A stretch of 64,000 bases of DNA, taken from IMG/VR virus record IMGVR_UViG_3300042545_001134, positions 120,600-184,599 of that record. One strand, given 5' to 3'. Below, piece after piece: positions 52,908-56,560 of this stretch; position 1 is the stretch's first letter; every line of letters starts with the position of its first letter. The notes under the pieces are model-generated. The model worked only from the letters and a program-made list of their open reading frames with translations, searched no databases and was not told where the DNA came from. Source of the stretch: a virus. A program made the position numbers and the translations under genes.

Positions 52908-53462
52908 TTATGTGTTTCTTCTTGTTCTAATCAAAGGTTCCATTGCCGATGTATATGTCGGTAAAAACTTAACTAACTTGTCTAACATAGTCATAGTTTC
53001 GTTTTCAATTGGTAACATGTCTGAGTTAATATATAAACCACCATCTTGACCAACAATCATTACAAAGTTGATGTCTAAGTCACTAATAGTACCATCTAAC
53101 CTAATTTGGTTATCGTCAATTGTAAAACCTGGGTCTAATTCCGCAAGTTGTGCGACTTGTTGTCTGAATGAGTCAATCAATTGACTTATTGAACCCTTTT
53201 CATCTTCCTGTAGTTTAACATCCTCTTGGTCATATGAAAGTAATTTAACTTCCACATCGTTAACCACTTCTACGTTGTCAAACTGTTCTTGACTTGACTC
53301 AGGTGCTGGTTCATTAATATCGTCACCGGGTTCCATTGGTCTTGTTTCCTCAACCTCTTCGGTGATTGTTTTCTTGTTTGTCACTTTTGACTCGTTAAGA
53401 TTTCTCATTATATTGAGGAAACCTTTCATCTCGTCATATGGTGTCTGTTTCTTGTTGCTCAT
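52908..53462 (-). CDS. Hypothetical protein, 184 aa
   Basis: An acidic protein beginning MSNKKQTPYDEMKGFLNIMR, a Pro/Glu-rich middle (RPMEPGDDINEPAPESSQEQ) and a folded C-terminal half (SQLIDSFRQQVAQLAELDPG, FTIDDNQIRLDGTISDLDIN, FLPTYTSAMEPLIRTRRNT). Probably a virion or assembly-cluster protein; no motif recognised. It overlaps the amidase-fold gene by 29 bases. Confidence 0.6.
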   Translation of the reverse strand: MSNKKQTPYDEMKGFLNIMRNLNESKVTNKKTITEEVEETRPMEPGDDINEPAPESSQEQFDNVEVVNDVEVKLLSYDQEDVKLQEDEKGSISQLIDSFRQQVAQLAELDPGFTIDDNQIRLDGTISDLDINFVMIVGQDGGLYINSDMLPIENETMTMLDKLVKFLPTYTSAMEPLIRTRRNT

Positions 53463-54057
53463 TTCTAAAAAATATTCTAAAATTAAATGATGGGTTTATA
53501 TCTGTATAAATATTCGAAAAGTTGGATTTACAAACAACTCCATGGAATTTTATGACATTTTCTAAATAACCTTGTGATTGTACCACCTGTTTAGGTATAC
53601 TATGTAACCCACATAAGTGGTCACACAGGTCAGCAACAGACTCTAATTGACTGTCACTGTACTTATCCCAGAAATAATAGTTTCTCCAATTCCTAACGAA
53701 TGGTTCGGACCTATATGGGTCTCCAATCCAATTATTTAAAAACCCCGTGATGGTATTTTTACTTAACCACCCGAGGTTTTCAATTGCTATTTTAATAAAT
53801 TGTTTATCTACTTTAGGTTCCTCAAAAGTATTTGAGTAGTAATTTGTATCGTATAATTGATACACCGTACCTAATTTAGTAACCACGAAATGTGGTATTT
53901 CAGAGTATTTCCCGTTATTTCTATACTTTAACTTATTAATGAAGTCGTCGGCTCTTCTACCGGTATCGTATAGTAATATTTGGGTTTTTTTTGTTTTTCT
54001 TTTTGTTATGTTTAGTACCTTACTATCTAAACCTTCTACGTTGTGTATTTCCAACAT
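53434..54057 (-). CDS. Amidase_2-fold protein with degenerate zinc site
   Basis: A 207-residue protein whose order of strands matches T7-lysozyme-type N-acetylmuramoyl-L-alanine amidases: QILLYDTGRRADDF (first strand), EIPHFVVTKLGTVYQLYD (central), and KFHGVVCKSNF ... INPSFNF (C-terminal). In T7 lysozyme the zinc ligands are two His and one Cys. Here the first His position is Tyr30, the second His is kept (His172) and the Cys position is Asn188. It may therefore be an inactive or structural relative rather than a lysin, or use a different metal site. It overlaps the 184-aa gene by 29 bases and the -1 frame extension of the gene upstream by 35. Confidence 0.55.
   Translation of the reverse strand: MLEIHNVEGLDSKVLNITKRKTKKTQILLYDTGRRADDFINKLKYRNNGKYSEIPHFVVTKLGTVYQLYDTNYYSNTFEEPKVDKQFIKIAIENLGWLSKNTITGFLNNWIGDPYRSEPFVRNWRNYYFWDKYSDSQLESVADLCDHLCGLHSIPKQVVQSQGYLENVIKFHGVVCKSNFSNIYTDINPSFNFRIFFRNEQQETDTI
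53505..53512 (-). promoter_or_regulatory. TATTTATA motif inside amidase-fold gene, upstream of 184-aa gene
   Basis: Gene-sense TATTTATA, 42 bases before ATG 53462, within coding sequence of the preceding gene. Possible internal promoter; weak support. Confidence 0.3.
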
Positions 54058-54232
54058 TCCTTGTAATCGTTTTTCTCATGGGGGAAGGTCTTGGCGATAA
54101 CTCCGCCGTTGGTGTCTCCTCCACGTTATTGTCCTCAGATTCCCAATAAAGGTCATCATTTTTAATAGTATCCGTAACCTTTTCCAAACCATCGTTTGGA
54201 GAATTTATTACTTGGGATTGGGACTCTGTTAC
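54023..54232 (-). CDS. -1 frame extension of the 407-aa membrane protein (69 codons)
   Basis: The -1 frame is open from 54232 to a TAG at 54023 and encodes 69 residues beginning VTESQSQVINSPNDGLEKVT and ending GNTQRRRFR. It has no plausible start codon of its own near the beginning; the first ATG is 18 codons before the end. Composition resembles coding sequence (Asp/Glu/Asn-rich then Arg-rich). It directly follows the slippery site, so a ribosome slipping back one base would make a 476-aa fusion with a basic tail. A homopolymer error in the A10 run would also fuse the frames, in which case the gene is simply 476 codons. Confidence 0.65.
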   Translation of the reverse strand, partial: VTESQSQVINSPNDGLEKVTDTIKNDDLYWESEDNNVEETPTAELSPRPSPMRKTITRNVGNTQRRRFR

Positions 54233-55452
54233 TTTTTTTTTTCTTCCTCAGATTCTATCGTTGGAAGTTCTTCAGTTGGTGTTTCGATAAGAGGTTCTGA
54301 TAATGGTTCCTCGTATGGTGGTTCATCTTCAAAACCATCCATTAACGTAATATCCCACTCTTTAAACTCTTCCATATCTTCAGGTGAATATATTTCATCC
54401 GATTCAATTGGCATATCCTCAATCGTTAATTGTGGTACTTCAACCACAGGAATATTTTCGAGTAAAACCTCTATAACCTCCTCTGGTGTTACCGTTGCGG
54501 TTGGGGTGAATGTCGGAACCTCAGTCTCTGTTGGAGTCATTGTAGGTGTCTCTGTTGGGGTATTAGTTGGGGTTGGTGTTACTGTAATTGTAGGTGTCTC
54601 TGTTGGGGTATTAGTTGGGGTTGGTGTTACTGTAATTGTAGGGGTTGGAGTCACCTCAGGTATAATAAGTGGTTCCGTACCAAATCCATCTAATTCTTTT
54701 TCATAGACCCCAATAGGTTGTTCAGTAATTTGGGGTTCTTGTTGTTTTTTATACTCCTCCGCCGCCTTAACTAACGTATCATTTGGTTTAGGTGGGTTGT
54801 TTAAATATCTTTCCAATATGGCCAAATCTTCTTCAGTTAATCTAACTCTTGAAACCTCACCAACAATGTCTTTTGCATCAACCACAGGGATTTCTTCTTT
54901 AACTTCTTCTTTGGATTTATTTTTCTGCTCCCTTATGTATTCACTAATACCACCATCATCAATAATTGCGTCAATTCCCCTTTCTTTATTTTCTTGAGTA
55001 AACTTAACTAACATGTGTAAGAATGACAATGAAATGATTGGTAACATTCCACCAGCAAAAAACGATAAGAATCGTTTATGACCAACAAGGTCTGTTTGGT
55101 CAACTCCCATGAATTCAACAAATGGGGCAACCAATTCTACCCATGATTTAAATGAGTCACTCGTAACATCAATAAACGAATACGCAAAATAGACATTACC
55201 AATAAATTGAATAAGGGTCACTATACCAAATGGAAAATATACTTTTCTACCCATATCGGCGGAAATTGCTGCAAGTGCTGATAATGCGGCAATCTCAATA
55301 CCAATTGATAGGTAAACCGCCCAAGTAACTGGGTTTGATAACCCATACCACTTTGTTACGTGTGATATAGATACCAATGCAACCGTAATAATCGGTATTA
55401 AAAATGCCGATATAATGATTGTTTTATAATTCCTTTTAAACCAAGTCTCCAT
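54229..55452 (-). CDS. Four-helix membrane protein with Pro/Thr-repeat cytoplasmic or surface tail
   Basis: A 407-residue zero-frame product. Hydrophobic segments at ~11-30, ~42-63, ~72-93 and ~128-148 predict four membrane passes. Residues ~150-235 are a charged linker (SEYIREQKNKSKEEVKEEIP). Residues ~265-315 are a P-T repeat (ITVTPTPTNTPTETPT, two full copies), and the end is acidic (YSPEDMEEFKEWDITLMDGF ... ESEEEKKK). The run of Lys codons is A10 G followed by TAA, a slippery site. It starts with TAATG coupling to the 95-aa membrane protein. Function unknown; P-T linkers are typical of extended spacers. Confidence 0.75.
   Translation of the reverse strand: METWFKRNYKTIIISAFLIPIITVALVSISHVTKWYGLSNPVTWAVYLSIGIEIAALSALAAISADMGRKVYFPFGIVTLIQFIGNVYFAYSFIDVTSDSFKSWVELVAPFVEFMGVDQTDLVGHKRFLSFFAGGMLPIISLSFLHMLVKFTQENKERGIDAIIDDGGISEYIREQKNKSKEEVKEEIPVVDAKDIVGEVSRVRLTEEDLAILERYLNNPPKPNDTLVKAAEEYKKQQEPQITEQPIGVYEKELDGFGTEPLIIPEVTPTPTITVTPTPTNTPTETPTITVTPTPTNTPTETPTMTPTETEVPTFTPTATVTPEEVIEVLLENIPVVEVPQLTIEDMPIESDEIYSPEDMEEFKEWDITLMDGFEDEPPYEEPLSEPLIETPTEELPTIESEEEKKK
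54232..54238 (-). promoter_or_regulatory. Programmed -1 frameshift slippery site A_AAA_AAG
   Basis: In gene sense the heptamer A AAA AAG lies within a run of ten A residues (54242-54233 then G 54232) and is followed immediately by the zero-frame stop TAA (54231-54229). A AAA AAG is among the most slippery bacterial -1 sites (used in dnaX). The -1 frame then stays open for 69 codons. No stimulatory stem-loop was identified by eye. Transcriptional slippage on A10 is an alternative mechanism. Confidence 0.6.
54539..54634 (-). repeat. Two 48-bp tandem repeats encoding a Pro/Thr linker
   Basis: Two essentially identical 48-bp units (54539-54586 and 54587-54634), followed by a partial third from 54635. 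Each encodes the 16-residue unit ITVTPTPTNTPTETPT or a close variant. Typical of recent slippage expansion of a linker. Confidence 0.85.
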
Positions 55453-55750: not shown

Positions 55751-56560
55751 TTATAAATAGTTTAGTAATCCATAACTATCGTTTCTAAGTTTTTTAAGTG
55801 CCTTGTCACGTAGTTGTCTAATACGTTCTTTGGTACATCCAAACTCTTCACCGAGGTCTTCCAAATTCATTTCTACACCAGCAAGACCGTAGGATTTTTC
55901 AATTATGACCTTTTCTCTGTCATCTAAGATAGATAACATCATATCCACTCTTCTACGAACTTCTTCGGGAGTGTTTAATAGTGCCTCAGGGTCATCGGCA
56001 TCTTTATTTGGGATTACATCAATAAGTTGGTCCCCATCTTCATTTATTTCATCATTAAGGTTTACACAATGTGGTAAAATAAAATCTCTTCCCTTATCTT
56101 CATAGTTAATGAAAAATTGGTCGTCTTTGTATGGTTGGTTTTTTTGTCTTTTCTGATTTTCTTGAATGATATTCGAAGGTAATCGAATGATTCTTGCATT
56201 CTCATTAAGAGATGCCATGATTGATTGTTTCACCCACCAAACGGCGTATGATATAAATTTGAAACCACTAGTTGGGTCGAATCTTTCCGACGCTTTCATT
56301 AGACCGATATTACCTTCAGATATTAAATCCATAATATCCATTCCTTGACCTTGATATAATTTGGCAACGGTAATAACAAAACGAAGATTTCCTACAACTA
56401 ATTCATTGAGATAATTTTCTCTTTCTTTTTTTGGTAGGTCTTTTCTTTTTAGTTCAGTAAAAATTATTTCTTGTCTCTCGTGAGAAATAACTTTAATCTT
56501 TCTAAGGTCTTTTATGTATTGTTGTATTTCCTCCGTGTTGATTAATATTGATTTACTCAT
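55751..56560 (-). CDS. Sigma-70 family RNA polymerase sigma factor (RpoD/RpoS-like)
   Basis: A 269-residue protein. Region 2 is well conserved: ELVVGNLRFVITVAKLYQGQ, GMDIMDLISEGNIGLMKASE, FKFISYAVWWVKQSIMASL (promoter melting and -10 recognition) and ARIIRLPSN. Region 3 is shortened. Region 4.2 has MNLEDLGEEFGCTKERIRQL / RDKALKKLR, the helix-turn-helix for -35 contact. Region 1.1 is absent. It resembles a compact housekeeping-type Bacteroidota sigma rather than T4 gp55, and would direct host polymerase to phage promoters, possibly the TATTTAT set. Its own upstream region carries a host-type promoter, so it could be expressed early. Confidence 0.92.
   Translation of the reverse strand: MSKSILINTEEIQQYIKDLRKIKVISHERQEIIFTELKRKDLPKKERENYLNELVVGNLRFVITVAKLYQGQGMDIMDLISEGNIGLMKASERFDPTSGFKFISYAVWWVKQSIMASLNENARIIRLPSNIIQENQKRQKNQPYKDDQFFINYEDKGRDFILPHCVNLNDEINEDGDQLIDVIPNKDADDPEALLNTPEEVRRRVDMMLSILDDREKVIIEKSYGLAGVEMNLEDLGEEFGCTKERIRQLRDKALKKLRNDSYGLLNYL
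55752..55759 (-). promoter_or_regulatory. TATTTATA motif before 95-aa membrane protein
   Basis: Gene-sense TATTTATA, 12 bases before ATG 55739, overlapping the last codons (Tyr-Leu-stop) of the sigma gene. Possible start of the membrane-protein unit. Confidence 0.35.

Follow-up and report, generated by a model that had tools for sequence, protein, structure and literature searches.

A conserved A10 run in a phage membrane protein gene: a putative bidirectional slippage site with three alternative C-termini

Organization of the locus

The window analyzed here is a 64-kb part of a 310,691-base virus record (IMG/VR IMGVR_UViG_3300042545_001134). On the minus strand, it contains a zero-frame open reading frame of 407 aa (54229..55452) that consists of a predicted four-transmembrane (4-TM) domain, a TacA1-like segment, an acidic stalk rich in Pro, Thr, and Glu, and a terminal EEEKKK followed by the stop codon. 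The N-terminal domain with the four predicted transmembrane helices (54973..55452) is common to all homologues. The AlphaFold model of the protein has a mean pLDDT of 74; a fold search with it yielded no PDB match with E <0.001 and, in a viral library, only uncharacterized phage proteins. A sequence search against PDB produced nothing below an E-value of 0.5, and no holin family matched the 4-TM protein above the cut-off. The positive-inside rule predicts a cytoplasmic location for the variable tail. The TacA1-like segment (residues 192-235; 54748..54879) matches PF08681 (TacA antitoxin 1-like) at 26.4 bits against a cut-off of 21, and 14 of 30 homologues match the same family at E-values up to 1. 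Thr/Pro-rich repeat DNA resembling the TPTPTNTPTETPT stalk is found repeatedly at other places in this phage genome (G000:C1:191231-197438 and 253992-254079).

The 3' end of this gene reads GAG GAA GAA AAA AAA AAG TAA on the minus strand, ending at 54229, and the A10 run within it (54242..54233; T10 on the plus strand) is the branch point of three reading frames. As described in the initial annotation, the run ends in A AAA AAG and is directly followed by a zero-frame TAA (54231..54229), which terminates the default product, and the -1 frame has no stop for 69 codons; the lengths given there for the two proteins, 407 and 476 aa, were confirmed. The -1 extension (54023..54232, minus strand; 69 codons plus a stop at 54025..54023) includes a DDLYWESEDN motif (54128..54157), ends with TRNVGNTQRRRFR, and gives the 476-aa product if the mRNA carries 11 A. 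The statement that this frame lacks a start of its own is accurate near its beginning; TTG, GTG, and ATG codons that could serve as starts are present within the frame, the ATG about 18 codons before its end. A short basic tail, NRVPIPSNKFSKRWFGKGYGYY (54162..54230, minus strand; 22 codons plus stop), is specified by the +1 frame, so that an mRNA with 9 A would give a product of 429 aa.

The gene downstream on the same strand (53434..54057) encodes an Amidase_2 domain protein (35.2 bits against a cut-off of 26). Its ATG lies within the end of the -1 extension, where the sequence AATGTT encodes the Asn-Val of an RNVGN motif. Upstream of the membrane protein gene are genes for a putative sigma factor and for a membrane-anchored protein of 95 aa, and a candidate Rz-like spanin (phrog_739, E = 1.9e-5) is encoded 2 kb upstream. 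The factor encoded directly upstream of this cluster (55751-56560, minus strand) is of the sigma-70 type by the look of its sequence.

Distribution and conservation of the A run

Scans of IMG/VR retrieved 56 distinct loci around the region encoding the C-terminus, along with more distant relatives. In a phylogenetic tree built from the N-terminal domain, plus the amidase where recognizable, 46 loci form a single clade with support of 100/99, and all of them carry a run of A9 to A11 in this gene at the same place; the 10 sister loci lack the run. No bacterial or archaeal homologues were found in a scan of GTDB genome contigs, and annotated phages provided only one match, distant and itself unannotated. 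The phages encoding this gene are large, uncultured members of one family and occur widely in the environment.

Such runs are rare elsewhere in these genomes. The A10 run is the sole A/T homopolymer of at least 9 within the 64-kb window, for which a first-order model predicts about 7 A/T runs of at least 9 and 2.4 of at least 10. Across 43 loci (351 kb), we counted 44 A runs of at least 10, nearly all of them at this site, and one T run of that length. A 100%-identical contig (L009) carries the same A10, and near-identical contigs agree in run length in general; for example, 13 contigs of the L038 group have identical flanks, although all of these are consensus assemblies. Recurrence at the same place in 46 loci, combined with this rarity, indicates that the run is neither a chance occurrence nor a homopolymer error.

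Most sites are A10, and two are A9. The flanking sequences vary by lineage (GAAGAAAAAAAAAAK, GATGAAAAAAAAAATTAG, GACGAAAAAAAAAAATAA, TTAAAAAAAAAAGTT, CTAAAAAAAAAATCA, and GTAAAAAAAAAGTAG), and the run, be it of 9, 10, or 11 A, begins in differing codon phases, after GAA-, TTA-, CTA-, ATA-, GTA-, or GAT-type codons. The site reads as two or three AAA codons in a row, and A_AAA_AAN heptamers are present at most sites. The comparison of homologues for a conserved slippery site together with the -1 frame, which the initial annotation had proposed, came out divided: the run and the frame are conserved, but the phase and context of the slippery site are not.

The relationship among the three frames is largely constant. 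In 42 of the 46 loci, the zero frame stops 0-4 codons past the run, the -1 frame continues to the start of the amidase gene, and a short basic tail is read from the +1 frame. The -1 extension spans 32-151 codons after the run, mostly at least 50; in many lineages, it contains a YWExDD-like motif, and it usually ends in RNVxN..RRxFR. The +1 tail is usually 12-38 residues long, as exemplified by RRVPTTGGIVGKLWFGQWGNK in L038, RRVPNSDIGGIEGGLGFVNNRKYTPPRANPNVRINRF in L067, and PYRGTPLRGGGKQPLKHGRFSILRFGGGNPNLNS in L118. The segments differ sharply in charge: the final 100 zero-frame residues have a mean net charge of -25.5, the -1 extension without its last 20 residues -12.8, those last 20 residues +5.6, and the +1 tail +4.3, with a positive value in 40 of 41 tails.

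Coding in both shifted frames

Selection on the shifted frames was assessed in 15 disjoint pairs of homologues by comparing the observed substitutions with the same substitutions placed randomly on matching bases. In the segment bounded by the run and the +1 stop, 79 amino acid changes fell in the +1 frame where 119.0 were expected (z = -8.2); for the -1 frame, the corresponding figures were 120 and 119.1, and for the frame containing the stop, they were 130 and 117.0. Beyond the +1 stop, with the last 45 nt omitted, the constraint is found in the -1 frame, with 103 changes against 161.0 expected (z = -10.5), and the other two frames show a slight excess of changes. Thus, the -1 extension, which had been noted as looking like coding sequence, is a selected sequence joined at the run. 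The result agrees with that from a previous comparison of 16 pairs that overlapped in part.

The openness of the +1 frame was evaluated separately, by randomizing the synonymous codons of the -1 frame. It exceeds the randomized expectation at P of about 0.01-0.07 in most loci, and the combined Fisher p is 2.8e-8 over 27 loci, not all of which are independent. We considered the possibility that the basicity of the +1 tail is a mechanical by-product of the acidic -1 frame; this explanation is countered by the synonymous-codon randomization together with the substitution test. Jointly, the two tests argue that each alternative frame is coding, mainly in a stretch of its own, and it is highly probable, judging from these sequence comparisons, that both are expressed. 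The conserved +1 frame did not figure in the initial annotation and emerged from the comparison of homologues.

The basic end of the long form calls for caution. The conservation of RNVGNTQRRRFR was not counted alone as evidence, and the main test excluded the final 45 nt, because this segment overlaps the amidase start. Even over the amidase start, the final 36 nt show constraint in the -1 frame (15 changes against 21.0 expected, z = -2.95). The Arg-rich end pointed out in the initial annotation is present and constrained, with the conservation partly confounded by its position over the start codon. Nor is the third product universal: the +1 frame comprises only two codons in L123 and L154, and in the group of L061, L062, L116, and L126, the +1 tail shows no excess conservation.

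Lineages with the extension in the zero frame

In four loci (L030, L057, L084, and L121), the extension is encoded in the zero frame, and the A10 run is still kept; on the tree, these four fused loci require four separate changes. In L057, a short tail, SFRKPLTRGKYSIFTFGGNPRLDK, is encoded in the -1 frame and resembles the +1 tail of L118 and L119, with a similarity score of 58 against about 18 under the null, a value reached in 0 of 2000 randomizations; the remaining frame stops immediately. L030 is laid out in the same way, although its similarity is weaker: of five comparisons, the best was with L083 (P = 0.005). In L121, both shifted frames encode short tails, and in L084, both stop immediately. 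In at least two of the four in-frame lineages, the two remaining frames thus retain their roles in rotated form. The initial annotation had named homologues whose extension lies in frame with no slippery site as a finding that would refute frameshifting; in-frame homologues do exist, but they retain the run.

Three of the fused lineages contain extra A runs upstream in the same gene, further A10 runs in L030 and L121 and an A9 in L057. There, the shifted frames either end after a few codons or extend a short way, which might give rise to further truncated forms.

Given that the in-frame lineages retain the run with the other frames rotated, run length and the set of frames are the conserved features, rather than a -1 heptamer. 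Maintenance of the run and the frame set whichever frame is the default calls for slippage in both directions.

Mechanism of frame choice

A nine-A run with a length conserved in homologues marks transcriptional slippage (PMC1088944), and the RNA polymerase of Escherichia coli and other enterobacteria slips in either direction at runs of at least 9 A (PMC6260861). The characteristics by which slippage sites are recognized, a conserved run of at least 9 A among homologues and conserved coding in the shifted frames, are both found at this locus. We therefore favor bidirectional slippage of RNA polymerase as the main agent, yielding three isoforms of 407, 476, and 429 aa; this is probably the correct reading of the sequence data and fits them better than a dnaX-type -1 ribosomal shift. 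The A10 run would then be a programmed site from which one gene gives three products. Faithful mRNA with 10 A would specify the default 407-aa membrane protein with its acidic stalk ending in EEEKKK; mRNA with one extra A (or 3n+1 more) would specify the 476-aa form, the acidic extension of which ends in the basic RNVGNTQRRRFR over the amidase start codon; and mRNA lacking one A (or with 3n+2 extra) would specify the form of about 429 aa, which carries the short basic tail. The enzyme that slips is most likely an RNA polymerase, presumably that of the host because no RNA polymerase beta subunit was found in the phage record that contains the window, a record that may be incomplete.

The initial annotation attributed the 407- and 476-aa products to dnaX-type -1 ribosomal frameshifting at A_AAA_AAG, which would make the +1 frame incidental. 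The window indeed contains the canonical heptamer in the right phase with a stop immediately after it, and the -1 frame is coding. However, the +1 frame, which is out of reach of -1 shifting, is constrained; runs of A9 to A11 in other phases and contexts, including those of the in-frame lineages, are still kept; and the heptamer would require only about 7 A. Stimulatory elements are not conserved either: no downstream RNA structure is shared among seven folded loci (fold z-scores from +0.7 to -4.7), an Rfam search for an RNA stimulator found nothing, and no conserved upstream Shine-Dalgarno-like element was detected, GAGGAAG being absent in many lineages. Coding in the +1 frame rules out pure -1 ribosomal frameshifting as the sole mechanism, and we consider this explanation of the locus unlikely; because most sites contain A_AAA_AAN heptamers, ribosomal -1 slippage could nevertheless account for some of the long form. 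An 11-bp hairpin in L118 (L118:5324-5350) ends just before the A10, recalling stem-loop-aided slippage; it is absent in the other folded lineages.

Alternatively, ribosomes might slide both ways on the poly-A mRNA and so produce all three frames. E. coli ribosomes move forward and backward on iterated AAA codons, of which this site encodes two or three in succession, but in vitro sliding is robust at A11 and slight at A9-A10 (PMC4363877), and the sites here are mostly A10, with two A9, which makes this a quite improbable source of the three frames.

Phase variation at the DNA level, with changes of tract length in the phage population switching the tail, could account for the differences in default frame among relatives (L030 compared with L031, as well as L057, L084, and L121), and these differences imply that frame-changing events at or near the run were fixed several times. 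A drifting tract, however, should give a mixture of defaults, whereas 42 of 46 loci share the immediate stop. Contigs with identical flanks also agree in run length, although minority variants are invisible in consensus assemblies. We regard phase variation as very unlikely. Homopolymers are error-prone in sequencing, which had made a sequencing or assembly error in a single true open reading frame the main alternative in the initial annotation, but no computed result favors it, and the same frame relation in dozens of diverged loci from many samples and in different contexts, save where the gene is fused, rules it out, leaving it a negligible probability.

Overall, what the initial annotation observed is real and larger than reported. 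Its interpretation is partly supported, with a different mechanism favored and a second alternative frame added.

Gene neighborhood and possible function

The sister loci without the run have the same gene order, and in most of them, the stop codon of the membrane protein gene overlaps the amidase ATG, which suggests ancestral translational coupling of the two genes. In L145, L134, L140, and L156, at about 4.7 kb in each locus, the stop/ATG overlap reads GATGCTTAA or AATGTTTGA. It is a reasonable reading that the -1 extension preserves the old amidase junction and that the run inserts an earlier default stop and a third tail.

The role of the protein is suggested by its four predicted transmembrane helices and the lysis-type neighborhood. 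Involvement in lysis is possible but, on our assessment, some way from being probable; control of lysis, for example by holin-like isoforms in a set ratio, is plausible. Under bidirectional polymerase slippage, the isoform ratio, possibly together with coupling of amidase translation, would tune a membrane complex. We infer the transcriptional slippage, the accumulation of all three proteins, and the tuning of a membrane complex by their ratio. The complete scenario, in which polymerase slippage makes three functional isoforms in a set ratio with overlapping selected tails, the long form couples amidase translation, and slippage tunes lysis, is put forward as a tentative and rather doubtful one. 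A toxin-binding, antitoxin-like segment of this kind on a phage membrane protein might sequester a host acetyltransferase toxin.

At this locus, one site appears to serve three frames, with the frame set kept while the default rotates. This compact arrangement is found widely among environmental phages. A gene caller would report the truncated default alone and overlook both tails.

Comparison with known slippage and frameshifting systems

Bacteria and RNA viruses are known to use programmed transcriptional slippage, normally to gain access to one alternative frame. Ebola GP is a case in which three products are made by polymerase slippage. A literature search found no three-way slippage in a double-stranded DNA (dsDNA) phage; the closest phage case is a Campylobacter phage gene with a poly-A frameshift that was suggested to be rescued by slippage (PMC2853527).

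The phage frameshifts in lambda G/GT and in coat protein genes resemble the present case in that recoding occurs near the 3' end and gives a fixed product ratio (PMC5009743). They are, however, ribosomal, proceed in one direction per phage, and affect structural or tail chaperone genes (PMC5009743), unlike the gene described here, which encodes a membrane protein next to an amidase. The dnaX gene of Thermus thermophilus likewise has a nine-A run and produces mRNAs in all three frames (PMC1088944), but its shifted frames only truncate the protein, whereas here both carry conserved peptides in most lineages. The bovine parainfluenza virus 3 (bPIV3) P gene and Ebola GP share with the phage gene a single slippage site with alternative C-termini in more than one shifted frame (PMC5009743); these are genes of RNA viruses with their own RNA-dependent polymerase, in contrast to a dsDNA phage that presumably uses a cellular-type RNA polymerase.

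Two bacterial genes provide close parallels. In Citrobacter rodentium, slippage at an A11 run in tssM generates two length variants, both of which are required (PMC4256274); as here, the product is a membrane protein and the run lies shortly before the stop. Unlike the phage gene, tssM gives two products and belongs to a bacterial type VI secretion system, and no homology is claimed. In Shigella spa13, slippage at an A10 run leaves 25-30% of the product C-terminally extended, and the coding end of the extension overlaps the start of spa32 and affects its expression (PMC5009743, PMC6260861). An extension that overlaps the start of the next gene matches the layout of the -1 extension and the amidase gene. 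One extended product has been reported for spa13, whereas in the phage gene, a second alternative frame is coding as well and the default is rotated in four lineages.
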